NCBI GenBank assembly: GCA_020833005.1
Contig: JAJHRD010000005.1
Span: 1 to 64,000 of the forward strand
Direction of reading: 5' to 3'
Source: Candidatus Methanomethylicota archaeon
Lineage (GTDB): Archaea > Thermoproteota > Methanomethylicia > Culexarchaeales > Culexarchaeaceae
Length of the DNA: 64,000 nucleotides
How positions within the stretch are numbered: position 1 is the first letter of the stretch; every line of letters starts with the position of its first letter. Both the position numbers and the translations under genes were made by a program. The notes under the pieces are model-generated. The model was not told the DNA's origin. It was given only the letters and a program-made list of their open reading frames with translations, and made no database searches. Below are positions 8,507 through 23,761 of the stretch, piece by piece.

Positions 8507-9649
8507 TTGACTTTTGAACTTTATGAGCGTGAACCCCCAATACCTCCAAGTGAGTTTGTACGTGTTGGGGTTGATGATTTAAGGAGCTTTGTATCAAGCA
8601 TATTTAGGGCTTATGGCGTTCCTGAAAATGATGCTGATGTGGTTGCTGATGTGCTTGTAACTGCAGATTTGTTTGGGATTTCAAGTCATGGTGTTCAGAG
8701 GGTTTCAAGGTATATTGGTGGGATAAAGTGTGGTAACGTTAATGTTAAGCCTAAAATATCATTTCATGGTAGGGGTGCTATTGGCGTTGTTGATGGTGAT
8801 AATGGTTTGGGTCAAGTTGTGGGCGTTAGGTGTGTGGAGTTTGCTTTGGAGAGGGTTAGGGATTATGGTTTAAGTCTAATACTCGCAAAGAATAGTAATC
8901 ATTATGGAATTGCAGGGTATTATGCTTTGAAGATCCTTGATGCTGGATTTATAGGTTTCTCCTCAACGAATTCTGATAAGCTTGTTTCATACGTTAATTC
9001 CCTTGGAAGATTTCTGGGTACAAACCCCATTGCCATAGCTATTCCAACACCGCACCCCCCACCAATACTATTCGATGCAGCTACATCAATAATTCCTGTT
9101 GGCAAGATTGAAATGTACTCTAAGCTTGGTAAAAGCATCCCTGAAGGTTGGGTTATAGATTTGGAGGGGAATATGCTTTCAGGGGATGCTAAAAAAGTTC
9201 TCGAATTGATTAGGGGATATAAGGCTTCAATACTCCCACTGGGTGGTTTGGGTGAAGATTATGGTGGCCATAAGGGTTCAGGATTAGCCTTCATTGTAGA
9301 CGTAATATGTGGGGTTCTATCTGGAGCTGCTTGGGGTATTCACGTTGGATACACCATTGGTAGTAGGCCTGCAAATGTTGGTCATGCCTTTGCAGCCATA
9401 GACATCGAATCAATAATGCCCAGAAGTGAATTCCTATCTAGAATTGAGCAGTACATCAATGAGATTAAATCTCTACCAAAACATCCAAAGGCTGATAGGG
9501 TTTGGATTCCAGGTGAGAAGGCTTGGTTGACAATGCAGACTAGACTCAAAATTGGAATACCCCTACACCTAAACGTGTACAATGAATTGAATAAGATCGC
9601 TGTGGAATCCGGTTTAACTAGGGAGTTGAAGATAATTTCGAGGTGCTAA
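8507..9649 (+). CDS. Malate/L-lactate dehydrogenase, Ldh2 family
   Basis: NAD(P)-dependent 2-hydroxyacid dehydrogenase of the type 2 malate/lactate/sulfolactate family, structurally unrelated to classical LDH. Visible signatures are SSHGVQRVSRY, VDGDNGLGQVVG, the catalytic-His segment NSNHYGIAGYYA and GGLGEDYGGHKGSGLA. TTG 8507 follows GGTG (8498-8501) by 5 nt. Substrate may be malate, lactate or sulfolactate. It might use the lactate predicted from MurQ, but the family usually acts on L-isomers and MurQ releases D-lactate, so I do not claim this. Confidence 0.88.
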   Translation: MTFELYEREPPIPPSEFVRVGVDDLRSFVSSIFRAYGVPENDADVVADVLVTADLFGISSHGVQRVSRYIGGIKCGNVNVKPKISFHGRGAIGVVDGDNGLGQVVGVRCVEFALERVRDYGLSLILAKNSNHYGIAGYYALKILDAGFIGFSSTNSDKLVSYVNSLGRFLGTNPIAIAIPTPHPPPILFDAATSIIPVGKIEMYSKLGKSIPEGWVIDLEGNMLSGDAKKVLELIRGYKASILPLGGLGEDYGGHKGSGLAFIVDVICGVLSGAAWGIHVGYTIGSRPANVGHAFAAIDIESIMPRSEFLSRIEQYINEIKSLPKHPKADRVWIPGEKAWLTMQTRLKIGIPLHLNVYNELNKIAVESGLTRELKIISRC

Positions 9650-12053: not shown

Positions 12054-13250
12054 TTATGGTAGTATTATCTTCCCAAGTATTGCTCTACCAGTGGCTCCAG
12101 TGGCTTTTGGAACGTTGCTTGGATTTCCACTTAAAGTTTCATTTGCCAGTATGGTCATTATTAGAGGCTCCTTTGCCTGTGCAGGTATACCGTAATCTTC
12201 ATGTAGGCTTACCTTTGCATCCGGATTCAACTCCCTAATCATCTCCACAAGCGTCTTATTTCTGCTCCCCCCTCCACCTAGAATTATCTCGTTGGGTTTT
12301 CTAGGTAGATACTTCCCATATGCTTCACTTATGGTTTTAGCAGTGTAATACGTTGCTGTGGCTATTATGTCCTCCCAACTTAAACCCATGTTTAAAGCCT
12401 TCTTCAAAACCCTCCCAGTAAACTTCCATCCGAAATCCTCCCTACCAGTGGTTTTAGGCGGTTTTAGGGATAGGTATGGGTGTTTCATCATGTAATTTAA
12501 TAATTCCATGTTCACATCTCCCCTACTGGCAATCTCTCCATCCACATCCATCCTAACCCTCCCACCAGTCATCTCTTCAACCAATGCATCTATTACCATG
12601 TTTCCCGGTCCAGTATCGAAGGCAATTACATCATCTAACCCTCCACCCCTCGGGATCCATGTAACATTGGCTATTCCACCAATATTCTGTATTGCCCTAT
12701 CCAAATTCATGCTCCTGAATATTATGTAGTCTGCATATGCACTTATTGGTGCTCCATGTCCACCTGCAGCCACATCCCCCTGCCTAAAGTCAGCTATGGT
12801 TATTATCCCAGTTTCATGGGCTATTACCGCAGGCTCCCCAATCTGTAGTGTGAATCTAGACTTGTATCCAGCTATACAATCAATTTTTGGGTTATGATAT
12901 ACTGTTTGGCCGTGGCTTGCTATGAAATCTATCTCCCCCCTATCTAGGCCAGCTTCATCTATGGCCTTCAAAGCTTTCTCAGCGTAAACCCTACCGAGAA
13001 CATTATTTAATTGGCACACCCTCTTTACATTCCCAGTCTTCGGATTCGCCACCCTAAATATCTCCCTCCTCAACTCTGGGCTGTACTCGTATGTTGCATG
13101 ATACATTATCTTGAACTTCGTCTCCACCCAACTCCCCTTAAGCTTCACTATGGCTATGGACACCCCATCTATGGATGTTCCAGACATAAGTCCCAAAGCC
13201 ATCTTCTCATCTTTAAATCTCAATTGGCATAGTTTATCCATTACATTCAA
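12054..13250 (-). CDS. anmK: Anhydro-N-acetylmuramic acid kinase
   Basis: AnmK hydrolyses the internal 1,6-anhydro bond of anhydroMurNAc and phosphorylates it to MurNAc-6-phosphate. Family motifs are clear: GLMSGTSIDGVSIAIV near residue 20, ASHGQTVYHNP, the active-site ADFRQGDVAAGGHGAP, QNIGGIANVTWIP and AFDTGPGNMVIDAL. Length (398) is normal. The substrate is made by bacterial lytic transglycosylases, so its presence in an archaeon is odd. MurQ, which consumes its product, is 4.5 kb away in this window. No sign of recent transfer: codon use looks like that of its neighbours. Confidence 0.92.
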   Translation of the reverse strand: MNVMDKLCQLRFKDEKMALGLMSGTSIDGVSIAIVKLKGSWVETKFKIMYHATYEYSPELRREIFRVANPKTGNVKRVCQLNNVLGRVYAEKALKAIDEAGLDRGEIDFIASHGQTVYHNPKIDCIAGYKSRFTLQIGEPAVIAHETGIITIADFRQGDVAAGGHGAPISAYADYIIFRSMNLDRAIQNIGGIANVTWIPRGGGLDDVIAFDTGPGNMVIDALVEEMTGGRVRMDVDGEIASRGDVNMELLNYMMKHPYLSLKPPKTTGREDFGWKFTGRVLKKALNMGLSWEDIIATATYYTAKTISEAYGKYLPRKPNEIILGGGGSRNKTLVEMIRELNPDAKVSLHEDYGIPAQAKEPLIMTILANETLSGNPSNVPKATGATGRAILGKIILP

Positions 13251-13332
13251 TTTAGATCGTAAGATTCATCTATCAAAACATGTTAATAACGGTTTAGACA
13301 ATGATCATGCAATAAAATTTGGGGGATTAATT

Positions 13333-13707
13333 TTACTCCACTTTAACCTCTCTTCCAGTCCTCTTCTTTGGTAGTTCTATTATGAGTAGGCCTTCGAAGT
13401 ATTTTGCCTTTACACCTTCAACTTCCACAGGGTCTTCCAGTTTTATCTTGTATTTGTATTCCCTTTCTCCTCCTGGTAGTTTTGTGGATGGCTTCGCAGT
13501 TGCCTCTATGGTCTTCTCGTTTACGTATAGTTTTATATCCTCCCTTCTTACTCCAGGCATTTCCAATGTGACTATGTATTTGTCCCCCTCATCCTTTATG
13601 TTGCATCTTTCGGCATCATACTTGTATGTCTTCATTTTTATTATTGGTATTCCTATGCCACCTATGAAAATCCCTACCCCCTTCTCTTTGTCTTCATAAT
13701 TACACAT
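13333..13707 (-). CDS. hsp20: Small heat-shock protein, Hsp20/alpha-crystallin family
   Basis: ATP-independent chaperone that holds unfolding proteins. The alpha-crystallin domain spans about residues 35-115 (KYIVTLEMPGVRREDIKLYVNEKTIEATA, then EGVKAKYFEGLLIIELPKK). The N-terminal arm is short and glycine/isoleucine-rich. Its promoter region carries three copies of AGTACAAA flanking a TATA box, and a winged-helix gene lies directly upstream on the same strand, suggesting stress control. Confidence 0.9.
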   Translation of the reverse strand: MCNYEDKEKGVGIFIGGIGIPIIKMKTYKYDAERCNIKDEGDKYIVTLEMPGVRREDIKLYVNEKTIEATAKPSTKLPGGEREYKYKIKLEDPVEVEGVKAKYFEGLLIIELPKKRTGREVKVE

Positions 13708-13763
13708 TTGTACTCACAAGTCTATTTTTGTACTTTCATATATTTAAAGTTTGTTTTTGTACT
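13707..13763 (-). promoter_or_regulatory. hsp20 promoter with three AGTACAAA repeats
   Basis: Read on the minus strand, AGTACAAA occurs at 13756-13763, 13727-13734 and 13707-13714. An AT-rich TATA-like stretch at about 13737-13748 lies between the first two. The last copy touches the hsp20 start codon, so protein bound there could block both polymerase and ribosome. Confidence 0.55.
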
Positions 13764-14218
13764 TATTCCACCTCTACCCTTCTCCACCCCTTTAGCTTCT
13801 CCTCCACTCTTCTAAGCTCCTCTTCTAGGAATCTCTTATACTCTTCCAGTTCACTTACATCTTCAATTTCCTCTGCTATGCTTATGTACCTCTCCCCCTC
13901 CCTTGGCTTTGAACTTTCCATTATGAATGATATGTATTTCATTATGGATTTAATCTTCGGCTCTATTAAGTTTGGTATTTTGCTTATGGCTTCAACCCCC
14001 TTCTCCGTTAATTTAACCCACCCCTCCTCATCCACCTCTATATATCCCCTCTCCTTCAATTCAGTTAGGGATGTGTAGAAGGAGCTTTTTGATTCAAATC
14101 CAAATCTATACATTTCCCTAAGTAGGTTTGATGCCTTCTCCCCTCCACTTCTAAGTTTTAGTAGTATTGCTATTTGATGTGGGTTTAACCTTTCCCCTCC
14201 AATTTTAACTTTAAACAT
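13763..14218 (-). CDS. Winged-helix transcriptional regulator with C-terminal coiled coil
   Basis: A 151-residue protein. Residues 10-80 form a PadR/MarR-like winged helix (HQIAILLKLRSGGEKASNLLREMYRFGFESKSSFYTSLTELKERGYI), with KLTEKGVEAI closing the wing. The C-terminal 40 residues are rich in Glu, Lys and Arg with heptad-like leucines (LEEYKRFLEEELRRVEEKL), probably a dimerising coiled coil. It lies directly upstream of hsp20, whose promoter contains repeated sites, so control of hsp20 is a reasonable guess. It ends 10 bp after the AlaX gene. Confidence 0.78.
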   Translation of the reverse strand: MFKVKIGGERLNPHQIAILLKLRSGGEKASNLLREMYRFGFESKSSFYTSLTELKERGYIEVDEEGWVKLTEKGVEAISKIPNLIEPKIKSIMKYISFIMESSKPREGERYISIAEEIEDVSELEEYKRFLEEELRRVEEKLKGWRRVEVE

Positions 14219-14227
14219 AATTCTCCT

Positions 14228-14944
14228 TCACTCTACTGTGAAGTATGCTCTCCTTTTATCCTTACCCTTATTCTGCACCTTTATTAGCTTTATCTTCCCC
14301 ACTTCCCCAGTGCTCCTTACATGTGGCCCCCCATCTGCCTGTATGTCAAGCCCCTCTATCTCCACTATCCTAAGCTCCTCCACCTGTGGTGGCATTTTCT
14401 CAGCCAATTTAACTATTCCAGGTATTTTGAGTGCCTCCTCCCTCCTTAGGAAATATATTTTTACTGGTAGGTTTCTTTCCACAGCTTCATTGGCCTTTTT
14501 TATGGCATCTTCGAATATGCTTCTATCCATTGTTGGTATGTTGAAATCCATTTTGGCATCTTCCACATCCACTTGTCCCCCGGTTATTAGTGCATGGTAA
14601 TCCCTATACATTATTGCTGCAAGCATGTGTGCTGCTGTATGTAGCCTCATGAGCCTATACCTCCTAGGCCAATCAATCTCCCCCTCCACTTCCCATCCCA
14701 CTTCAGCCTTTGGCTGTTTTTCCAGTACATGTATTATGTCCCCTGTGGCATGATTCAGCTTTACATCTAAAACCTTGTATTCCAACCCCCCAATCTTTAG
14801 GGTTCCCGTGTCGTGGGCTACCCCTCCAGTTTCAGGGTGGAATATTGTTTGATCCAATACTATTTCAACGCCATTTATGGCTGTAATCTTAGCTTTGAAT
14901 GTCTTCTGGTAGCTGTCGTATTGGTATAGGTGTCTTGTGGGCAT
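14228..14944 (-). CDS. alaX: Alanyl-tRNA editing protein AlaX
   Basis: Free-standing editing domain that hydrolyses Ser or Gly mischarged onto tRNA-Ala. The zinc ligands are in HTAAHM near residue 100 and in QADGGPHV near 207; the N-terminal beta-barrel has FHPETGGVAHDTG. At 238 residues it is the medium AlaX-M class. It is divergent from nagZ, sharing an 80-bp promoter region. Confidence 0.92.
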   Translation of the reverse strand: MPTRHLYQYDSYQKTFKAKITAINGVEIVLDQTIFHPETGGVAHDTGTLKIGGLEYKVLDVKLNHATGDIIHVLEKQPKAEVGWEVEGEIDWPRRYRLMRLHTAAHMLAAIMYRDYHALITGGQVDVEDAKMDFNIPTMDRSIFEDAIKKANEAVERNLPVKIYFLRREEALKIPGIVKLAEKMPPQVEELRIVEIEGLDIQADGGPHVRSTGEVGKIKLIKVQNKGKDKRRAYFTVE

Positions 14945-15023
14945 AATTCATCATCAATCTACAATTCTATGACTCATAACTTTTTAAGTTTTCCCGTTAT
15001 GAATTAGTTTTGGTGTATGAAAT

Positions 15024-16583
15024 TTGGATTTGGACTTCTTGGCTGGACAGATGATTATGATGGGATTTAAGGGGTATGAATTGGATTCTGAGCTTATGGA
15101 TGTTTTGAGGAGGGTTAAGCCATGCGGCTTAGTCTTATTTCAGAGGAATATTAGGGGGTTGACTCATGTTAAGAGGCTTATAGGTGAAATTCAAGATTAT
15201 GCTTCAAATATTGGTTTACCAAAACTCCTCGTAGCCTTGGATCATGAGGGGGGTGTGGTTTTCAGGTCTGAGAGGCTTACCCCACTACCAAGTGCCATGG
15301 CTCTTGGAGCTTCAGGGGATCCATCCAATGTGGAGTGTGTAGCTAGGATTGCTGGTGAAGAGCTTAAGGCTTTGGGTTTCAATGTGAATTTCGCTCCAGT
15401 TGCGGATTTGAATACTAATCCTAGGAATCCAGTTATAGGTTTAAGGTCTTTTGGTGATGATCCCGATGCAGTTTCTGTTATGGTTTCAAAGTATGTTTCC
15501 ACATTGCAATCCATTGGGGTTATGGCTACGGCTAAACATTTCCCAGGTCATGGCGATACATCCATAGATTCACATATAGATCTCCCAAAAGTTGATGCTG
15601 ATCTTGATTTGCTTATGGCTAGGGAGCTTAAACCATTTAAGGCTGCCATAGATGCTGATGTGGCTCTAATAATGACTTCCCATGTATCCTTCCCAAAGAT
15701 TGATGAAACCGGTCTCCCTGCAACTCTATCTAAGAAGATTTTGAGGGATATTTTGAGGGGGCTTCTCAAGTTTAATGGCCTCATAATTTCAGATGCCCTT
15801 GAAATGAAGGCTATTAGTGGTAGGTTTGATGTTGGGGAAGTTGCATTTCATGGTTTAAATGCTGGATTAAACGTCTTCCTAAGATGTGATGATTATGATT
15901 CTGTTTTCGAATTGAAGGATGCAATAATTAAGTGCATTAAGAGTGGTAGGGTTGATCAAAGCGTCCTTTATGATTCTTATGCTAAGATTGAGGCTGTTAG
16001 GGGTAGGATTAAGTCTGCTTTAAATCTTCATCCACCAGTCAAGCTTTCACAATCCCTTTTCAGGAGGAATAGAGTGGCATCTAGGGATATATCCTTAAAC
16101 GCCATAACTCTAGTTAATGGTGAAGCCTTTAAGCCCATTAAGGATTTGAATTCCATAGTTATTTTGATTCCAAAACCTCTTGAACGATTCCTCTCCAAAT
16201 TCGATTGTGATGTTGTTGGTATGGTTGTGGGTGAGTTTGGAAGTTATGTGGAGAACATTGTCTTATACTTTTATGATGAGAGCTCCCCTGTTGATGATAT
16301 TTTGGAGGCTTCCCGAAACGTTGATGGAGTCATATTCTTCACATATAATGCCATATTCAACGATTTCCAGATGAATTTGTATAGGATTGTTAGGGATAGA
16401 GTTTCTGCGATTGTTGTTGCTGGTTTGCCGTATGATGTTGAGCTCATTGGTGATTCTAAGCCAATCTTATTAACCTACGGTTTGAATCCACCCTCACTTT
16501 CAGCTCTCGTGGATGTTTTATGTGGTTTTGAGGGGGCTCGTGGGAAGCTTCCAGTTAAGCTTAGACATCATGCTTCTGGTTAG
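15024..16583 (+). CDS. nagZ: Glycoside hydrolase family 3 beta-N-acetylglucosaminidase (NagZ-like)
   Basis: Removes terminal GlcNAc from peptidoglycan fragments. The barrel shows ALDHEGGVVFR near 71-81, the NagZ signature KHFPGHG at 171-177 with the acid/base histidine loop DTSIDSH (His184), and the nucleophile Asp257 in ISDALEMKAI. Residues after about 340 form a second alpha/beta domain, as in two-domain NagZ of Bacillus type rather than the 341-residue enteric enzyme. There is no signal peptide, so it should act in the cytoplasm. TTG 15024 follows GGTG (15012-15015) by 8 nt. It is convergent with namZ, overlapping by 4 bp. Confidence 0.92.
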   Translation: MDLDFLAGQMIMMGFKGYELDSELMDVLRRVKPCGLVLFQRNIRGLTHVKRLIGEIQDYASNIGLPKLLVALDHEGGVVFRSERLTPLPSAMALGASGDPSNVECVARIAGEELKALGFNVNFAPVADLNTNPRNPVIGLRSFGDDPDAVSVMVSKYVSTLQSIGVMATAKHFPGHGDTSIDSHIDLPKVDADLDLLMARELKPFKAAIDADVALIMTSHVSFPKIDETGLPATLSKKILRDILRGLLKFNGLIISDALEMKAISGRFDVGEVAFHGLNAGLNVFLRCDDYDSVFELKDAIIKCIKSGRVDQSVLYDSYAKIEAVRGRIKSALNLHPPVKLSQSLFRRNRVASRDISLNAITLVNGEAFKPIKDLNSIVILIPKPLERFLSKFDCDVVGMVVGEFGSYVENIVLYFYDESSPVDDILEASRNVDGVIFFTYNAIFNDFQMNLYRIVRDRVSAIVVAGLPYDVELIGDSKPILLTYGLNPPSLSALVDVLCGFEGARGKLPVKLRHHASG

Positions 16584-17719
16584 TAGATGTGGTAATTCTC
16601 CTTCTCATATGCGTATTTTATGAGTTCCCCTTCCAGTTCATCCACTATGCTCCATGGGTCTCCACCTTCATCTATCCCCCTCCTAACTCTATCATCCCCA
16701 ACGAGCATATCTATCCAGTATCCCCCCTTAACCTTCCTCCACCTAAATTTGTCTGGATATAGCTTTTTAACAGTGCTTATTACTTGTATTCCTGTTAGGA
16801 ATGGTCTGAATGATTCTCTGTCTGTTATGTGTATTTCCACTCCACTGCATATTTTGCCAGCATACTTCCCCCTCCAAGGCTTGAATGCCACTGGTCTGAA
16901 TCCAACTCCAGTTAATCCAACCCTATTTAGTTCTTCGGCGAGCTTCTTCCCCTTAATCCATGGGGCTCCAATTATGTGGAATGGTTTTGCAGTTCCCCTT
17001 CCCTCAGATATGTTTGTCCCCTCTATTAGGCATGTTCCAACATATACTTGTGTTGTTTCATGTGTTGGCATGTTTGGGGATGTGTACATCCATGGTAGCC
17101 CTGTTTGATCGAACCATAAGCTTCTATTCCACCCTTCCATGGCTACAACTTTAACTTCAGCCTTTAAATTATATTTCTCATTTAGGTATGTGGCTAATTC
17201 ACCTATCGTCAATCCATATCTCACTGGTATTTCCGCTATTCCAATGGGTGACTTGTATTGTGTTTTCAGTATGGCTCCCTCAACTATCTCCCCTGTTAGT
17301 GGGTTTGGTCTATCCAGCACTATTATTGGTTTTGAGTATTCCCCACATGCTTCTATGCAGTGGTATAGTGTGGATATGTATGTGTACCATCTTACACCAA
17401 CATCTTGTAGATCGAAGATCAATGCATCCACATCTTCCAAATCGGCTTTATTCGGCTTTAAACTCTCACCATATATGCTTTTCAATTCCACATCGTATTC
17501 CTCATCCCTCTCTTCACATGCATCAACGAGTTTGAATCCATGTTCTGGTGTGAGAACCCTCTTAACTTTGCATTTCCCCTTAACCCTAGCTTCATCTATT
17601 ATGTGTGTGAATTGTGGTGTCATGCTCGATTGGTTTGCCACTATGGCTACATTTCCACCCCTCACATCCTTGAACTCTTCCTCTGCATAAACTTCCAATC
17701 CAACCTTAACTCTTCCCAC
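16580..17719 (-). CDS. namZ: Exo-beta-N-acetylmuramidase NamZ (DUF1343, GH171)
   Basis: DUF1343 proteins include Bacillus NamZ, which splits MurNAc from the non-reducing end of murein glycans. Family motifs are PEHGF with the proposed catalytic Glu, FDLQDVGVRWYTY, LDRPNPLTG, SPNMPTHETTQVYVGTCLIEGTN, SEGRGTAKPF and IGAPWI. No signal peptide is present, unlike typical secreted bacterial forms. I prefer GTG 17719; TTG 17735-17737 would add six mostly arginine residues. It overlaps the end of murQ by 14 bp in the same operon. NagZ and NamZ would together shorten a glycan sugar by sugar. Confidence 0.92.
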   Translation of the reverse strand: MGRVKVGLEVYAEEEFKDVRGGNVAIVANQSSMTPQFTHIIDEARVKGKCKVKRVLTPEHGFKLVDACEERDEEYDVELKSIYGESLKPNKADLEDVDALIFDLQDVGVRWYTYISTLYHCIEACGEYSKPIIVLDRPNPLTGEIVEGAILKTQYKSPIGIAEIPVRYGLTIGELATYLNEKYNLKAEVKVVAMEGWNRSLWFDQTGLPWMYTSPNMPTHETTQVYVGTCLIEGTNISEGRGTAKPFHIIGAPWIKGKKLAEELNRVGLTGVGFRPVAFKPWRGKYAGKICSGVEIHITDRESFRPFLTGIQVISTVKKLYPDKFRWRKVKGGYWIDMLVGDDRVRRGIDEGGDPWSIVDELEGELIKYAYEKENYHIY

Positions 17720-18647
17720 CCCTCTTCGCCTCCGCAATTTCTATTGCCTTTGACGGTATCCCCCCAGCTTCTTTAAGTAGCTCTTTTGCTTTCTCAGCAT
17801 TTAAGCCTGTCTTAGCCATTATTATTGCCAATGTAACGTTCCCTCCAGCTTCAATGAGCTTTTCCCCTGCCTCCTCATATGATACTCCAGCTTCCTCCAT
17901 TATTATCCTCTTGGCTCTCTCCCTAAGCTTCTCACTGGCTGGTGTAAGGTTTATCATCAATCCACTTTTCACCCTTCCAAGCTTCATCATCGTAGCCGTG
18001 CTCATCATGGTTAATATAACCTTCTGTGCAGTTGCAGCCTTCATCCTAGTGGATCCAGTAACTATTTCTGGTCCTGTTTCTGGGGCTATTAGTATATCCG
18101 CATGTTTCGCTATCTCCCCCCTCCTATTGCTGGTTATGGCTATTGTTTTTGCTCCAATTTCCTTTGCATATTTTAATGCTGATATGACGAATGGTGTTCT
18201 CCCACTGGCACTTATCCCCACCACTACGTCACCGCAATTCAATCTTCTGGCTTTAAGTTCCCTTATAGCCATTTCCGAGTCGTCTTCAGCTCCCTCCACT
18301 GGTCTAAATACTGCTCCAGGTCCACCTGCAATTATTGCTTCCACCATTTCTGGTCCAACGTTGAATGTTGGTAGGAGTTCAGCTGCATCCATTACTGCCA
18401 GTCTACCACTTGTTCCAGCTCCAACATATATTAGTTTCCCACCTTTTGATAATGCTTCAACGATGACTTCAACGGCTTTCGCTATGTTTTCCAGTTCCCT
18501 TGAAACTGCTTCTATTGCCTTCTTATCCTCTTCATTTATCCTCTTCAATATCTCTATTGTGGGTTGCTCTTCCAATTTTACATCCAAATTTATCCTAGCT
18601 TCAGTGGGAGCTTCCTTCAATTCTTCGAAAATCCTTCTTTCATGCAT
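17706..18647 (-). CDS. murQ: N-acetylmuramic acid-6-phosphate etherase MurQ
   Basis: Cleaves the D-lactyl ether of MurNAc-6-phosphate to GlcNAc-6-phosphate and D-lactate. The SIS-fold signatures are strong: LIYVGAGTSGRLAVMDAAELLPTF, GAVFRPVEGAEDDSE, VVVGISASGRTPFVISALKYA and GPEIVTGSTRMKAATAQK; the two catalytic glutamates expected in AAE and VEGAEDD are present. The N-terminal EARN-type segment is slightly altered (EARINLDVKLEEQPTIEIL). ATG 18645-18647 overlaps the stop of the upstream kinase, so 12 upstream residues of the longer frame are dropped. The reaction is specific for lactyl-ether sugars, which archaea are not known to make. Confidence 0.95.
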   Translation of the reverse strand: MHERRIFEELKEAPTEARINLDVKLEEQPTIEILKRINEEDKKAIEAVSRELENIAKAVEVIVEALSKGGKLIYVGAGTSGRLAVMDAAELLPTFNVGPEMVEAIIAGGPGAVFRPVEGAEDDSEMAIRELKARRLNCGDVVVGISASGRTPFVISALKYAKEIGAKTIAITSNRRGEIAKHADILIAPETGPEIVTGSTRMKAATAQKVILTMMSTATMMKLGRVKSGLMINLTPASEKLRERAKRIIMEEAGVSYEEAGEKLIEAGGNVTLAIIMAKTGLNAEKAKELLKEAGGIPSKAIEIAEAKRGGKS

Positions 18648-19584
18648 TCGCCCACACCTCAATATTCCTAATAACTTCCTCATTTACTTTTGATCCAGCT
18701 TCTTCTATTGCCATTAATATTGCTCCAGCAACCCCCCTATAACTGCATTTACATATCTTTACATTTGGGTATTCTGATTCCACGTACCTCCTTATTGCAT
18801 CAATTAGTTTACTTGAAGTTTTGAATACTCCACCTGAACAGTATACTTCGCATTTGTTTACTCCACTCCTCTTTATCAGTATCTTTATTAGCCTTGCAAG
18901 TTCCCATGCTGCTTCCATCATTATCTCACCAGCCTCTTCATCCCCCTCCTCGAAGGCTTTAGCCACATCCTCAGCTATCTTCGCTATTTCCACAATTCCC
19001 ATTCCACCATAAACCTTCTCCACAATCTTTTGCGGTTTATCGGCATTCAATTTCCCCATGATCTTTAAGGCTAGGTTTGTGGGCTGTTTACCCTCATCAT
19101 ACCCCCTTAATATTTTGCTTATGGCTTTCCTAGCTATCCAGAATCCACTCCCCTCATCTCCAAGTAGGTATCCCCATCCTCCAGCTCTTAGTGGTTTACC
19201 ATTAACTTCCATGTATGCTATGGATCCAGTTCCACATATCAGTATCATCTTCTCCCCCTCCCCTCTTGGTGTGGCTTTATATGCTATTTTTGCATCTGAT
19301 GTTAGTATCACCTTCTCGGCATAATCCTCCTTCAAGGCATCCATTATCAGCTCCCTATTCCTCTCATTTTCCAGTCCAGCTGCCCCTATAACGCACACCT
19401 TTGCTTTCCCCTCCAACTTAACTGCTTCTAAGGCTTCCAGCAAATTCCTCTTTGCCTCCTCGAATCCCACGGCATTTATGTTTATGCTTCCGGAGGTATG
19501 CTTCTTCACTAGCTTCCCATTTATTAGTGTTGAAGCTGCCTCTGTTTTGCTTCCTCCACCGTCAACTCCAATAACGTACTCCAT
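18640..19584 (-). CDS. BadF-type N-acetylmuramate/N-acetylglucosamine kinase (MurK/NagK-like)
   Basis: ASKHA-fold sugar kinase of the BadF/BadG/BcrA/BcrD family, with YVIGVDGGGSKTEA at the start, ICGTGSIAY, LLGDEGSGFWIARKAI and CSGGVFKTS. Clostridial MurK of this family phosphorylates MurNAc and GlcNAc at O6; other members are GlcNAc kinases. Placement as first gene of a murK-murQ-namZ operon with an 8-bp overlap into murQ makes MurNAc the likely substrate, but GlcNAc is possible. ATG 19584 gives MEYVIGVDGG; three upstream residues are excluded. Confidence 0.86.
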   Translation of the reverse strand: MEYVIGVDGGGSKTEAASTLINGKLVKKHTSGSININAVGFEEAKRNLLEALEAVKLEGKAKVCVIGAAGLENERNRELIMDALKEDYAEKVILTSDAKIAYKATPRGEGEKMILICGTGSIAYMEVNGKPLRAGGWGYLLGDEGSGFWIARKAISKILRGYDEGKQPTNLALKIMGKLNADKPQKIVEKVYGGMGIVEIAKIAEDVAKAFEEGDEEAGEIMMEAAWELARLIKILIKRSGVNKCEVYCSGGVFKTSSKLIDAIRRYVESEYPNVKICKCSYRGVAGAILMAIEEAGSKVNEEVIRNIEVWANA

Positions 19585-19696
19585 CAATCCCACTCATCCA
19601 CACTATTCTTATCGTAACCTTTCAAAATTAATTGTTTTCCCCACTATTTTGGAAAAGTTAATATTTCATGGACTCCACATTTTTAGTGGTGTCTAT

Positions 19697-20347
19697 TTGA
19701 GGATTATTCCAGATGATTATGTGGATGAGGTTAAGGGGATTCTCAGCGGATTAAGGGATAATGTTAGGGTTTTATTGTTTACTCAGAGGTATAAGTGTGC
19801 TGGTTGTAGGGAGGCTGAAGCCCTACTTCAAGATTTATCGGAATTATCCAGTAAGATTGTTTTGGAGAAGTATGTTTATGAGGATTCTAGGGTGAAGTTT
19901 AATGAGTACAATGTAACCTATGTTCCCACGATAATAGTGGTTTCACCGCAAACTGGTGGTATGGCTAGGTTTCTAGGAGTCCCATTGGGTTATGAGTTTT
20001 CAAGTTTACTTGAAGATTTAATTCATGCATCCACTGGGGAAACCCATCTTCCAAAATCGGTTGTTCGGGCTGTGGGTGAAGTGAATGTGGATGTCGATGT
20101 TAAGGTTTTCGTAACCCTCTCATGTCCATACTGCCCCATGGCTGTGGGCGTCGCCCACTCCTTCTCGCTAATAAATCCGAAGATTAAGAGTGAAATGATA
20201 GATGCATCCCTATTCCCAAACCTTGCATTGAAGTATTCCGTTTCAGCAGTTCCAAAGACTGTTATAAATGATTCCATTGAGATTGTGGGGGCTTACCCCC
20301 CTGAAGCCTTATTGCAGAAGATACTTGAGGCTGTTAAGCGTAGGTAG
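19697..20347 (+). CDS. pdo: Protein disulfide oxidoreductase, tandem thioredoxin fold
   Basis: Two thioredoxin-like domains, typical of the PDO family of thermophilic archaea. The N-terminal site is YKCAGC and the C-terminal site is SCPYC; cis-prolines are in YVPTIIV and AVPKTVI. It makes or breaks disulfides in cytoplasmic proteins. TTG 19697 follows GGTG (19688-19691) by 5 nt; earlier in-frame codons lie in the antisense of the kinase gene. Divergent from the murein-sugar operon. Confidence 0.88.
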   Translation: MRIIPDDYVDEVKGILSGLRDNVRVLLFTQRYKCAGCREAEALLQDLSELSSKIVLEKYVYEDSRVKFNEYNVTYVPTIIVVSPQTGGMARFLGVPLGYEFSSLLEDLIHASTGETHLPKSVVRAVGEVNVDVDVKVFVTLSCPYCPMAVGVAHSFSLINPKIKSEMIDASLFPNLALKYSVSAVPKTVINDSIEIVGAYPPEALLQKILEAVKRR

Positions 20348-20423
20348 ATGCCTCGCCCAATTTAATGGTTTAACCATACCTTTATTTATTTATGAATCCA
20401 TCAATTCTATTGGTGATTGTTTT

Positions 20424-21827
20424 ATGGTTAAATATGATTTGGTTTTGAAGGGTGGATTCGTTGTGGATCCTAAGAATGGTTTGGAGGATTACATGGATAT
20501 AGGGGTTTCCCGTGGCGTTGTGGTTGAATTGGATTCAGATATTGACCCTAGATATGCAGCTGAGGTTTTGGATGTATCTGATAGGATAGTTTTCCCTGGG
20601 GTTATAGATTCACATACCCATATTGGTAGGATGGGGCATAGGATGATGGCTAAGGTTGGGGTTGTAACCGCCATAGATATGTCTGCATCCATGGAGTCCA
20701 TAGCTATGAATATGAGGAATTATGGTGCTGGATTGAATGTTGGAACAGTTACCAATATTAGGAACTATCATCCTAAGGCTGGTGAAACTCTTGGCACCAG
20801 TGAGATTAGGGATGCAGTTTCAAAGGCTATGGGTGAAGGATCCCTTGGAATAAAGATTACTGGTGGACACAACCCCTTCACACCTGAAACTACCGCTGAG
20901 ATTATAAGTGAATGTAATGAGGCTGGATGCTACATAGCCTTCCATGTTGGTACAACTAGGACTGGTAGTGATTTGAATGGATTCTTGGAGGCTTTAGATT
21001 TGGCTGGAGGTAATGGTCTCCACATAGCCCACGTTAACAGTTATTGTAGGGGGCTTATTGAAGATCCGGTTTATGAAGCTTTGAAGGCAATTTCAGCCTT
21101 GAAGGGTAGGAAGAGGATTGCCTCAGAATCATATTTGGCATTGATAAATGGCACCAGCGGTTTATGTGTTGGTGATGTTCCAGCCAGCCATGTTACTAGG
21201 AATTGTTTGAAGATGAGGGGGTATCCCATATCTAAGGCTGGATTGGAGAAGGCCATAAGGGATGGATATGCCTATGTTAGGGTTGAGGCTGGCGGTGAAT
21301 CGGTACTCGTTACAGGTGAGGAGGGGGTTAGATTGTGGCTTGAAGCTGGAACTGATATTGGCATAAGCTTCCCAGTAAATGATCCTGAAGCTCAAATAGT
21401 TTTGGCCACTGCTAAGGATGGTGGGAAGTTTGTTGTTGACGCCATTAGCACTGATGGTGGGGATATACCTAGAAATGTCCAGGTGGAGTATGGGATGCTC
21501 CTAGTAAAGTTTGGTGCTCTTAGCTTGAGGGATTTAGCCGTTAAACTATCATTGAATCCTGCCATGATGTTTGGTTTGGAGGGGAAGGGGCATCTTGGAA
21601 TTGGAGCCGATGCAGATATAACCGTCATAGACCCATTGACTGGAACTGCATGTATGGGTATTTCTGGGGGGAGGGTTATAATGGTGGACGGTGTGGTTGT
21701 GGGTTCTGGCGGTAGGATTATAACCACTGAGCATGGCTTAGATAATGTTAAGAAGTATGGTTTTGAATGTAAAGTTGCAGATCTATCGAAGGCTAAGATA
21801 TATTCTGGGGTGATATATGGTGGTTAA
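20424..21827 (+). CDS. Amidohydrolase (dihydroorotase/D-aminoacylase-like)
   Basis: A 467-residue metallo-dependent hydrolase: the composite beta-sandwich start VLKGGFVVDPKNGLEDY, metal ligands in PGVIDSHTHIG, a probable carboxylated lysine in GIKITGG, histidines in AFHVGTT and HIAHVNSY, and the late aspartate in ISTDGGD. Relatives cleave cyclic amides or N-acyl-D-amino acids. A role on D-amino-acid stem peptides of murein is possible from location only. ATG 20424 follows GGTG (20412-20415) by 8 nt. It overlaps the OsmC gene by 11 bp. Confidence 0.8.
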   Translation: MVKYDLVLKGGFVVDPKNGLEDYMDIGVSRGVVVELDSDIDPRYAAEVLDVSDRIVFPGVIDSHTHIGRMGHRMMAKVGVVTAIDMSASMESIAMNMRNYGAGLNVGTVTNIRNYHPKAGETLGTSEIRDAVSKAMGEGSLGIKITGGHNPFTPETTAEIISECNEAGCYIAFHVGTTRTGSDLNGFLEALDLAGGNGLHIAHVNSYCRGLIEDPVYEALKAISALKGRKRIASESYLALINGTSGLCVGDVPASHVTRNCLKMRGYPISKAGLEKAIRDGYAYVRVEAGGESVLVTGEEGVRLWLEAGTDIGISFPVNDPEAQIVLATAKDGGKFVVDAISTDGGDIPRNVQVEYGMLLVKFGALSLRDLAVKLSLNPAMMFGLEGKGHLGIGADADITVIDPLTGTACMGISGGRVIMVDGVVVGSGGRIITTEHGLDNVKKYGFECKVADLSKAKIYSGVIYGG

Positions 21828-22375: not shown

Positions 22376-23761
22376 TCATAGATTTCCAATTTTATGCAAT
22401 CTATTCCTCTCCACGTATAGGTCTATCTTCCCATCCTCTGATACTGTGAATTCCACTGGTTGTTTTACACCATTGGACCATATGTAGAATTTCAGTGTTT
22501 CAAGGTTATCGTCGCATGGTATTAGTGGCGTTGACATGTCTGTCCATTCATCCTTCTGCTCCATGTATAGCATTCCACTCCTTGAAACCACATTTACCCT
22601 TATAGCTCCACCATACCCCTCATATACTCCTGTTAGCATGTTCATCCTCTTCTGTATCTTTATTATTGGGACATCGTCTATTTTAACGCCAATTAGCATG
22701 GCTAATGCTGCGTGGGCTATGTATGTGTAGGGGAATCCTGTGGTATTTGAGGCCATTACCACTCCAATCTTCTCTTCTGGTATGAATGCCGTGTATGCGC
22801 TTGCACATCCCGTTGATCCACTGTGATGTATAACCCTCCTACCATAGAAGTCTTCTATTATCCCCCAACCGTAACCATACCCCTCCCTACCATAATATGT
22901 TTTTGGTCTTTCCACATGGATTTTCTGCATTTCCATTATACTCTCCTTGCTCGCCAATTTCACGCCATCGAATTCCCCATAATTCATTGATGCAATTACA
23001 TAGTTTGAGAATTCGTTTACTGAGCTGACAAGCCCCCCTGCAGCATATATGAGTTTATCGAAGGGCATTCTAACCTTCCTCGGATTTCCATCCTTATCCT
23101 TCCAGTATGGCGTCATCTTGTCAGTTTCCCTTTCAAACTCCTCCTTTAGAAATGTGCTTCTAAACATTTTCAGTGGCTCCAGAATCCTCCTCCTAATGTA
23201 TTGGTGGTATTCCATTCCACTTACCCTTTCAATTATGTCTCCTAGGATTGTGTATCCAGCGTTTAGGTAGAAGTATCTCTCCCCAGGTTTCGCTGCAACT
23301 TCCTCTCCCGCGGCGTTAACGTATCTGTAGAAGTCTTCCATGCTGCTTAGTGGAGTGTAATCCTCCTTTACCCCTGTGGCTTTCCTCAAGCTTATAACTG
23401 CAGTGTTTAGTGATGGTATTCCTGAGGAGTGTGAGAGTAGGTGGTGTATTCTTATTGGGTATTCCTTGAATCCAATTTTTAGTGGTGCATACTTCTCCAC
23501 GGGGTCTTCTATGCTTATCTTCCCCTCTTCAGCCAATTGCATTATTGCCAGTGCAGTCATGGATTTCGTGCATGATCCAAATCCGTATAGCGTGTTTATG
23601 GTTGCTGGTGAATTGCTTTCCAAATCCTTTGCCCCGAAGGCTTTCATGTACGCTTTTTCCCCATCAATTATTATTGATATGCTTAAGCCTGGTGTTCTGC
23701 TTATCTTCATGAGTTTTGGGGTTTCACTTTCAATGAATGATTTCAACTCTTCGATCTTCAT
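22376..23761 (-). CDS. Serine hydrolase, beta-lactamase/PBP-like (S12) family
   Basis: Penicillin-recognising fold with the SxxK motif SCTK (Ser63, Lys66), the YxN motif YLN at 165-167 and HSG in HHSGSTG replacing KTG, plus the family sequence HHLLSHSSGIPSL. The C-terminal 100 residues look like a lipocalin-type extension. Relatives include esterases, D-aminopeptidases and the AmiE protein of the Bacillus murein-sugar locus. No signal peptide is visible, so it is probably cytoplasmic. A murein-peptide role is suggested by location only. It runs towards the tRNA gene. Confidence 0.82.
   Translation of the reverse strand: MKIEELKSFIESETPKLMKISRTPGLSISIIIDGEKAYMKAFGAKDLESNSPATINTLYGFGSCTKSMTALAIMQLAEEGKISIEDPVEKYAPLKIGFKEYPIRIHHLLSHSSGIPSLNTAVISLRKATGVKEDYTPLSSMEDFYRYVNAAGEEVAAKPGERYFYLNAGYTILGDIIERVSGMEYHQYIRRRILEPLKMFRSTFLKEEFERETDKMTPYWKDKDGNPRKVRMPFDKLIYAAGGLVSSVNEFSNYVIASMNYGEFDGVKLASKESIMEMQKIHVERPKTYYGREGYGYGWGIIEDFYGRRVIHHSGSTGCASAYTAFIPEEKIGVVMASNTTGFPYTYIAHAALAMLIGVKIDDVPIIKIQKRMNMLTGVYEGYGGAIRVNVVSRSGMLYMEQKDEWTDMSTPLIPCDDNLETLKFYIWSNGVKQPVEFTVSEDGKIDLYVERNRLHKIGNL

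Follow-up and report, generated by a model that had tools for sequence, protein, structure and literature searches.

Enzymes that salvage N-acetylmuramic acid (MurNAc) and N-acetylglucosamine (GlcNAc) from peptidoglycan are known from several bacteria. In Bacillus subtilis the murQRP-amiE-nagZ-namZ genes bring together NamZ, NagZ, a beta-lactamase-family amidase and MurQ, as in the archaeal locus described here, but with the MurP phosphotransferase transporter and secreted hydrolases. Tannerella forsythia (MurT-MurK-MurQ; PMC10465942) and Clostridium acetobutylicum (MurK) have an ATP-dependent cytosolic MurNAc kinase and not the MurP phosphotransferase, and in T. forsythia MurK is accompanied by MurQ as in the archaeal cluster. 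Both of these organisms, however, build murein. We have analyzed a locus encoding AnmK, NagZ, NamZ, MurQ and a BadF-type kinase in a heat-loving Candidatus Methanomethylicota archaeon, which belongs to the genus Candidatus Culexarchaeum (Thermoproteota). It lies in the first 64,000 nucleotides of contig JAJHRD010000005.1 (assembly GCA_020833005.1), and this whole stretch is termed the window. The locus very probably encodes a working cytoplasmic pathway for the salvage of fragments of bacterial peptidoglycan, vertically inherited within the order of Candidatus Culexarchaeum (class Culexarchaeia).

The closest bacterial parallels that we found are plasmid clusters in Paenibacillus guangzhouensis (NZ_CP045294) and Thermomicrobium roseum, with nearly the same gene set. 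The former reads murR-murQ-SBP-permeases-AnmK-GNAT-PIG-L-NamZ-BadF kinase (SBP, substrate-binding protein), and resembles the archaeal set in having MurQ, AnmK, NamZ and the BadF kinase together. PIG-L and GNAT genes also lie beside the clusters of three archaeal families (f14, f16 and f34 in the survey below), but not beside that of Culexarchaeum. Paenibacillus differs in having its own murein, a sugar ATP-binding cassette (ABC) transporter in the operon and a MurR regulator, with no NagZ in the stretch compared. The Thermomicrobium cluster, murQ-BadF kinase-NagZ-AnmK-serine hydrolase-nagA, comes from a thermophile and likewise unites MurQ, kinase, NagZ, AnmK and a PF00144 hydrolase. Its host is a bacterium, however, NagA is present, NamZ is absent, and its MurQ is distant from the archaeal proteins in our tree. 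Among archaea, plasmids of Haladaptatus salinisoli and Halorussus vallis carry AnmK, NamZ, NagZ, a serine hydrolase and an ABC substrate-binding protein, but these have no MurQ in the stretches compared, and there are GH18 genes and, in Halorussus, an AmpD-like amidase. Plasmid NamZ clusters with serine hydrolases were seen in the cultured haloarchaea Haladaptatus, Halomontanus and Halorussus (L174, L175 and L176); that of Halomontanus includes an MR/MLE enzyme, with no MurQ in the stretch compared.

The enzyme families and the logic of the cluster are therefore already known; what is new is an archaeal host without murein. A literature search on MurQ, AnmK and MurNAc in archaea, outside which most subscription papers fell, returned no description of an archaeal route of MurNAc catabolism. 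MurQ does not appear in Strock et al. 2025 (PMC12352652), who raise the question of whether the peptidoglycan hydrolases of archaea are used in predation or in scavenging. The main text of the description of the Culexarchaeia (PMC9723716) makes no mention of peptidoglycan or muramic acid.

The five enzymes of the locus

All five genes are uninterrupted and lie within positions 12054-19593 of the window, where a preliminary description had placed them. On the reverse strand the kinase gene (18640-19593), murQ (17706-18683) and namZ (16580-17737) form a tight operon. They overlap by 44 and 32 bp, taking the first possible start codons (the starts are putative), and the operon was rightly described as overlapping. 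The nagZ gene (15024-16583, forward strand) is convergent to namZ. Between anmK (12054-13250, reverse strand) and the rest of the block stand hsp20, a winged helix-turn-helix gene and alaXM. Catalytic motifs had been reported as intact throughout, and we agree, on comparison with aligned homologs for MurQ and the kinase, and from the sequences and alignments to PDB entries for the other three.

For MurQ, NamZ and NagZ the closest PDB entries are the expected enzymes. MurQ matches TIGR00274 with 330 bits (equivalog cut-off 302) over residues 27-315, i.e. its full length, and its nearest structures are 4lzj/1nri (256 bits). The archaeal and bacterial sequences compared share the motifs GAGTSGRL...AE and VEGAEDD, and both active-site glutamates (AE, EGAED) and the SIS motifs are retained relative to the bacterial ones. 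MurQ is thus predicted to be a MurNAc-6-phosphate etherase that cleaves the lactyl ether. NamZ (DUF1343) has both of its domains (NamZ_N, 232 bits; NamZ_C, 179 bits), is nearest to 4k05 (200 bits) and contains the motifs PEHG, LDRPNP, SPNMP and EGTNISEGRGT. Exo-beta-N-acetylmuramidase activity is predicted. NagZ is a two-domain glycoside hydrolase family 3 (GH3) protein (PF00933, 258 bits) that aligns with the beta-N-acetylglucosaminidase 6k5j over residues 6-513 with 266 bits. It scores 206 bits against the beta-N-acetylhexosaminidase model NF003740, one bit under the cut-off of 207. Its motif AKHFPGHGDTSIDSH is intact, and the GH3 pattern KHFPGHG...DSH is present. AnmK, a member of the anhydro-MurNAc kinase family, matches PF03702 with 313 bits and NF007148 with 458 bits (cut-off 387).

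The specificity of the kinase can be compared with a published rule. From the structure of T. forsythia MurK, acceptance of MurNAc needs small residues in the lactyl site and depends on the residue preceding the catalytic aspartate, which in most glucose and GlcNAc kinases is asparagine (PMC10465942). The window kinase (PF01869, 125 bits) is closest to the MurNAc/GlcNAc kinase 8zo3 (134 bits), followed by a Sulfolobus hexokinase (116 bits). It has serine before the catalytic aspartate (TSD) together with GGWG, and no bulky residue in the lactyl site. The Thermomicrobium kinase has the same S-D and G-G-W-G, and nearly all of the archaeal cluster kinases share this pattern. The corresponding residues are T-D and G-G-W-G in human NAGK, and H-D and G-G-R-G in the Sulfolobus hexokinase. 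The lactyl site of T. forsythia MurK reads S-P-L, compared with G-G-W in the archaeal kinase. These positions fit the rule for accommodation of MurNAc and support a predicted phosphorylation of MurNAc.

Co-occurrence and clustering in the Thermoproteota

The preliminary description proposed that MurQ, NamZ, NagZ and AnmK be sought together in related archaea. We surveyed 398 genomes drawn from the phylum Thermoproteota, and found MurQ, NamZ and AnmK together and clustered across 13 families. MurQ exceeds the equivalog cut-off in 25 genomes, and a further three have split or truncated copies, giving 28 genomes in these 13 families. NamZ is found in 30 of the 398 and AnmK in 23. MurQ and NamZ co-occur in 24 genomes (Fisher p = 6e-29), MurQ and AnmK in 16 (p = 4e-16) and NamZ and AnmK in 18 (p = 4e-19), all three values ignoring relatedness; the co-occurrence spans many families. 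The gene set is not peculiar to the genome of the window.

The genes are also neighbors, and where MurQ and NamZ are both present they usually adjoin each other. Kinase, MurQ and NamZ lie together in families f1, f14, f16, f34, f47, f55 and f57, MurQ-NamZ pairs occur in f62 and f66, and MurQ-kinase pairs in f2, f3, f25 and f33. PF00144 serine hydrolases, PIG-L deacetylases and GNAT acetyltransferases recur beside them. In f57 (L052, 10222-17525) the operon continues as kinase-murQ-namZ-lysA-SBP_bac_5-DppB-DppC-DppD-DppF, with AnmK upstream, and in f34 (L062) the order is kinase-murQ-namZ-lysA-SBP-DppB-DppC. lysA again adjoins namZ in L050. The presence beside NamZ of a diaminopimelate (DAP) decarboxylase and of an importer for oligopeptides suggests that muropeptides, and not sugars alone, are the substrate.

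In one f16 genome (L058; contig C164 of G056, 12699-13566) MurQ is split by an in-frame TGA, as either a pseudogene or an assembly error. In a genus without MurQ, which we take to be Caldivirga-like, namZ adjoins a gene for a PRK02947-family SIS protein (293 bits; L138, 9132-11047, in genome G050), and this neighborhood is present in five of five genomes. It is possible that the PRK02947-family protein serves there as an alternative MurNAc-6-phosphate etherase.

Other genes in and around the block are less readily connected with the pathway. alaXM (14228-14944, reverse strand; NF040865, 310 bits, cut-off 300) is an alanyl-tRNA editing gene, an archaeal flank between anmK and nagZ that lies outside the pathway; its position is kept in L007, L043 and L133. 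A PF00144 serine hydrolase with a Pab87 octamerization domain is encoded at 22376-23761 on the reverse strand (PF00144, 215 bits; PF13969, 63 bits) and matches the Pab87-type structure 2qmi with 333 bits. This member of the CubicO/beta-lactamase family is a candidate for cleaving peptides or amides, and may act on D-amino-acid peptides, but its membership of the pathway is uncertain. Elsewhere, PF00144 genes lie near namZ or murQ in the Thermomicrobium cluster and in several further families of archaea. Upstream of the kinase are a thioredoxin-like gene (19580-20347) and an amidohydrolase-superfamily gene (20400-21827), in positions that are kept within the order. The latter was considered as a substitute for NagA and rejected, since its matches to dihydroorotases, FwdA and D-aminoacylase are no more than partial. 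An Ldh_2 protein at 8507-9649 was considered as a D-lactate dehydrogenase; the Ldh_2 family is generally L-specific.

Fate and source of the substrate

A plausible sequence of events can be set out. Small glycan or muropeptide fragments would be imported, some relatives having Dpp-type ABC importers in the operon. NagZ would remove GlcNAc, and NamZ MurNAc, from the non-reducing ends. The BadF kinase would convert these to GlcNAc-6-phosphate and MurNAc-6-phosphate, and AnmK would produce MurNAc-6-phosphate from anhydro-MurNAc. MurQ would then cleave the lactyl ether to give GlcNAc-6-phosphate and D-lactate.

A view that the pathway ends at GlcNAc-6-phosphate, without NagA or a stand-alone SIS deaminase, was overturned by a gene elsewhere in the genome. 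Contig C13 (about 19995-21812 of the contig; L181, 5996-7813) encodes a 605-residue fusion of NagB and PIG-L (NF002557, 579 bits, cut-off 384) whose glucosamine-6-phosphate deaminase part matches TIGR00502 with 285 bits (cut-off 237). The PIG-L part shows a weak similarity to the diacetylchitobiose deacetylase of archaea, and PIG-L matches lie in open frames of similar size in two other genomes, G062 (604 residues) and G210 (614 residues). No stand-alone SIS-type deaminase was found in the genus. The fusion is a candidate bifunctional enzyme that could deacetylate and deaminate GlcNAc-6-phosphate to fructose-6-phosphate, completing the pathway. In Culexarchaeia, which lack phosphofructokinase, fructose-6-phosphate is reported to enter the ribulose monophosphate pathway (PMC9723716), and this would be the route taken by the flux from amino sugars.

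The stem peptide may be used as well. Full LysA was found in 14 of the 24 genomes examined, and DapB exceeded its cut-off in none of them, archaeal controls being detected. In Culexarchaeum lysA adjoins a gene for an M55 D-aminopeptidase (PF04951, 358 bits; DppA 1hi9, 192 bits) at L178, 9433-11557, and L179, 8439-10557, and also on a 1.08-Mb scaffold of Candidatus C. yellowstonense. With no DapB over the cut-off in the genome, LysA appears there to be an orphan DAP decarboxylase. The M55 D-aminopeptidase and LysA would then deal with what remains of the stem peptide.

Several observations weigh against this reading. No canonical NagA was found in the order, and no importer was found at the locus. 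NlpC/P60 and LD-carboxypeptidase (S66), the only wall-cleaving families looked for, are absent from Culexarchaeum, so that an ability to open intact walls is not supported. The nearest PDB entry to AnmK is levoglucosan kinase (4zxz, 261 bits), with bacterial AnmK proteins at 175-197 bits (3cqy, 197). In the AnmK tree levoglucosan kinase groups with haloarchaeal AnmK (89/85) and not with the Thermoproteota sequences. The substrate of AnmK is less certain than its name. The window kinase has glutamate where the T. forsythia MurK structure has isoleucine, and 8zo3, named a MurNAc/GlcNAc kinase, has Asn-Asp, contrary to the residue rule. The fit of the lactyl site is for these reasons supportive but not decisive.

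The lack of NagA, together with the limit that a missing phosphofructokinase places on glycolysis of hexose phosphates (PMC9723716), lends some weight to an anabolic use, in which GlcNAc-6-phosphate goes mainly into UDP-GlcNAc and surface glycans and not into carbon and energy. We regard this as a tentative possibility and on the whole unlikely, since the genome encodes a NagB/PIG-L fusion suited to GlcNAc-6-phosphate and MurQ also yields D-lactate. The anabolic and catabolic fates are not exclusive.

It is improbable that the enzymes serve other amino sugars, such as chitin oligomers or archaeal N-glycans, with MurQ, NamZ and AnmK having drifted to non-muramic substrates. GH3 enzymes and BadF kinases are broad, and the structural matches of AnmK to levoglucosan kinase and of the kinase to Sulfolobus hexokinase would fit. 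But three families tied to MurNAc co-occur and cluster in 13 archaeal families, the MurQ motifs are conserved, the lactyl-site positions of the kinase fit, and relatives have a DAP decarboxylase gene beside namZ.

Where the enzymes act bears on whether living bacteria are attacked. Secretion is a property of the founding bacterial NamZ enzymes and is not a feature of the family. In a crude test of N-terminal hydrophobicity no signal peptide was recognized on the window enzymes or on nearly all of their relatives, while the Dpp binding proteins were positive. Uptake of fragments must therefore precede enzyme action. Some archaea have peptidoglycan hydrolases that kill bacteria (PMC12352652), yet we think it improbable that the locus is part of a predatory system that lyses living bacteria. 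The lack of signal peptides, and of the two wall-cleaving families looked for in Culexarchaeum (NlpC/P60 and S66 peptidases), instead favors scavenging of imported muropeptide fragments over lysis.

The preliminary description also held that MurQ would have no archaeal wall substrate. Five genomes of the order were searched for the Mur ligase domain PF08245, and none has it; the Culexarchaeum genomes without it include one that is 99% complete. It was also not found in most of the other MurQ-bearing genomes, the exceptions being five genomes of f14 and f16 with one match each. Culexarchaeum thus has no wall of its own to recycle, and the substrate must be exogenous. In bacteria these enzymes recycle endogenous walls, but recycling of murein or pseudomurein by this archaeon is very improbable given the missing Mur ligase; pseudomurein moreover lacks the lactyl ether.

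Host, history and meaning

The locus belongs to the archaeon. Its closest named relative, Candidatus C. nevadense (L007), has the same gene order, with proteins 81-95% identical to those of the window, and the whole block is found on a 1,082,165-bp scaffold of Candidatus C. yellowstonense YNP-LCB-024-027 (G062) at ~96% identity. Two further families of the order (L132-L135) hold pieces in the same arrangement, namely AlaXM-HTH-Hsp20-AnmK, NagZ-NamZ and kinase-MurQ. The GC content of the block is 0.42 compared with 0.41 for the flanks, and archaeal genes are interleaved with those of the pathway. The source is a metagenome-assembled genome and the enzyme families are bacterial, but contamination, or a contig chimeric at 12-19 kb, is contradicted by this synteny across independent assemblies and by the clades described below, and is excluded for practical purposes, so that the assignment to an archaeal genome is borne out.

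The trees were built with a small bacterial sample. In the MurQ tree a branch whose support is not strong (80/88) separates the 24 Thermoproteota sequences from 18 bacterial ones, and the window protein falls within an archaeal clade of 13 sequences (100/99). In the NamZ tree 25 Thermoproteota sequences group together (67/77), the window protein being in a clade of 14 (100/99), and haloarchaeal NamZ lies outside the Thermoproteota group (approximately unbiased test, p = 0.03). There are clades at the level of the order in the NamZ tree and in the AnmK tree (97/94 in the latter). The trees are consistent with acquisition long ago, after which the genes were for the most part inherited together.

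Taken with the clustering in 13 families, the missing Mur ligase and the downstream genes, the synteny lends support to the original proposal of bacterial-type salvage of MurNAc and GlcNAc from bacterial wall debris. For a broader statement the chances appear evenly balanced: that at least 13 families of Thermoproteota have an old and mostly vertically inherited salvage of muropeptides, recovering sugars, D-lactate, D-alanine and diaminopimelate from bacterial necromass only, with Caldivirga-like lineages using the PRK02947-family protein in place of MurQ.

The question of killing or scavenging raised by Strock et al. 2025 (PMC12352652) becomes testable, and experiments could begin at once in those cultured haloarchaea that have related clusters. 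MurNAc is a hallmark of the bacterial cell wall. If the pathway is active, these archaea would be direct consumers of bacterial necromass, and its genes would be a genetic marker of that diet.

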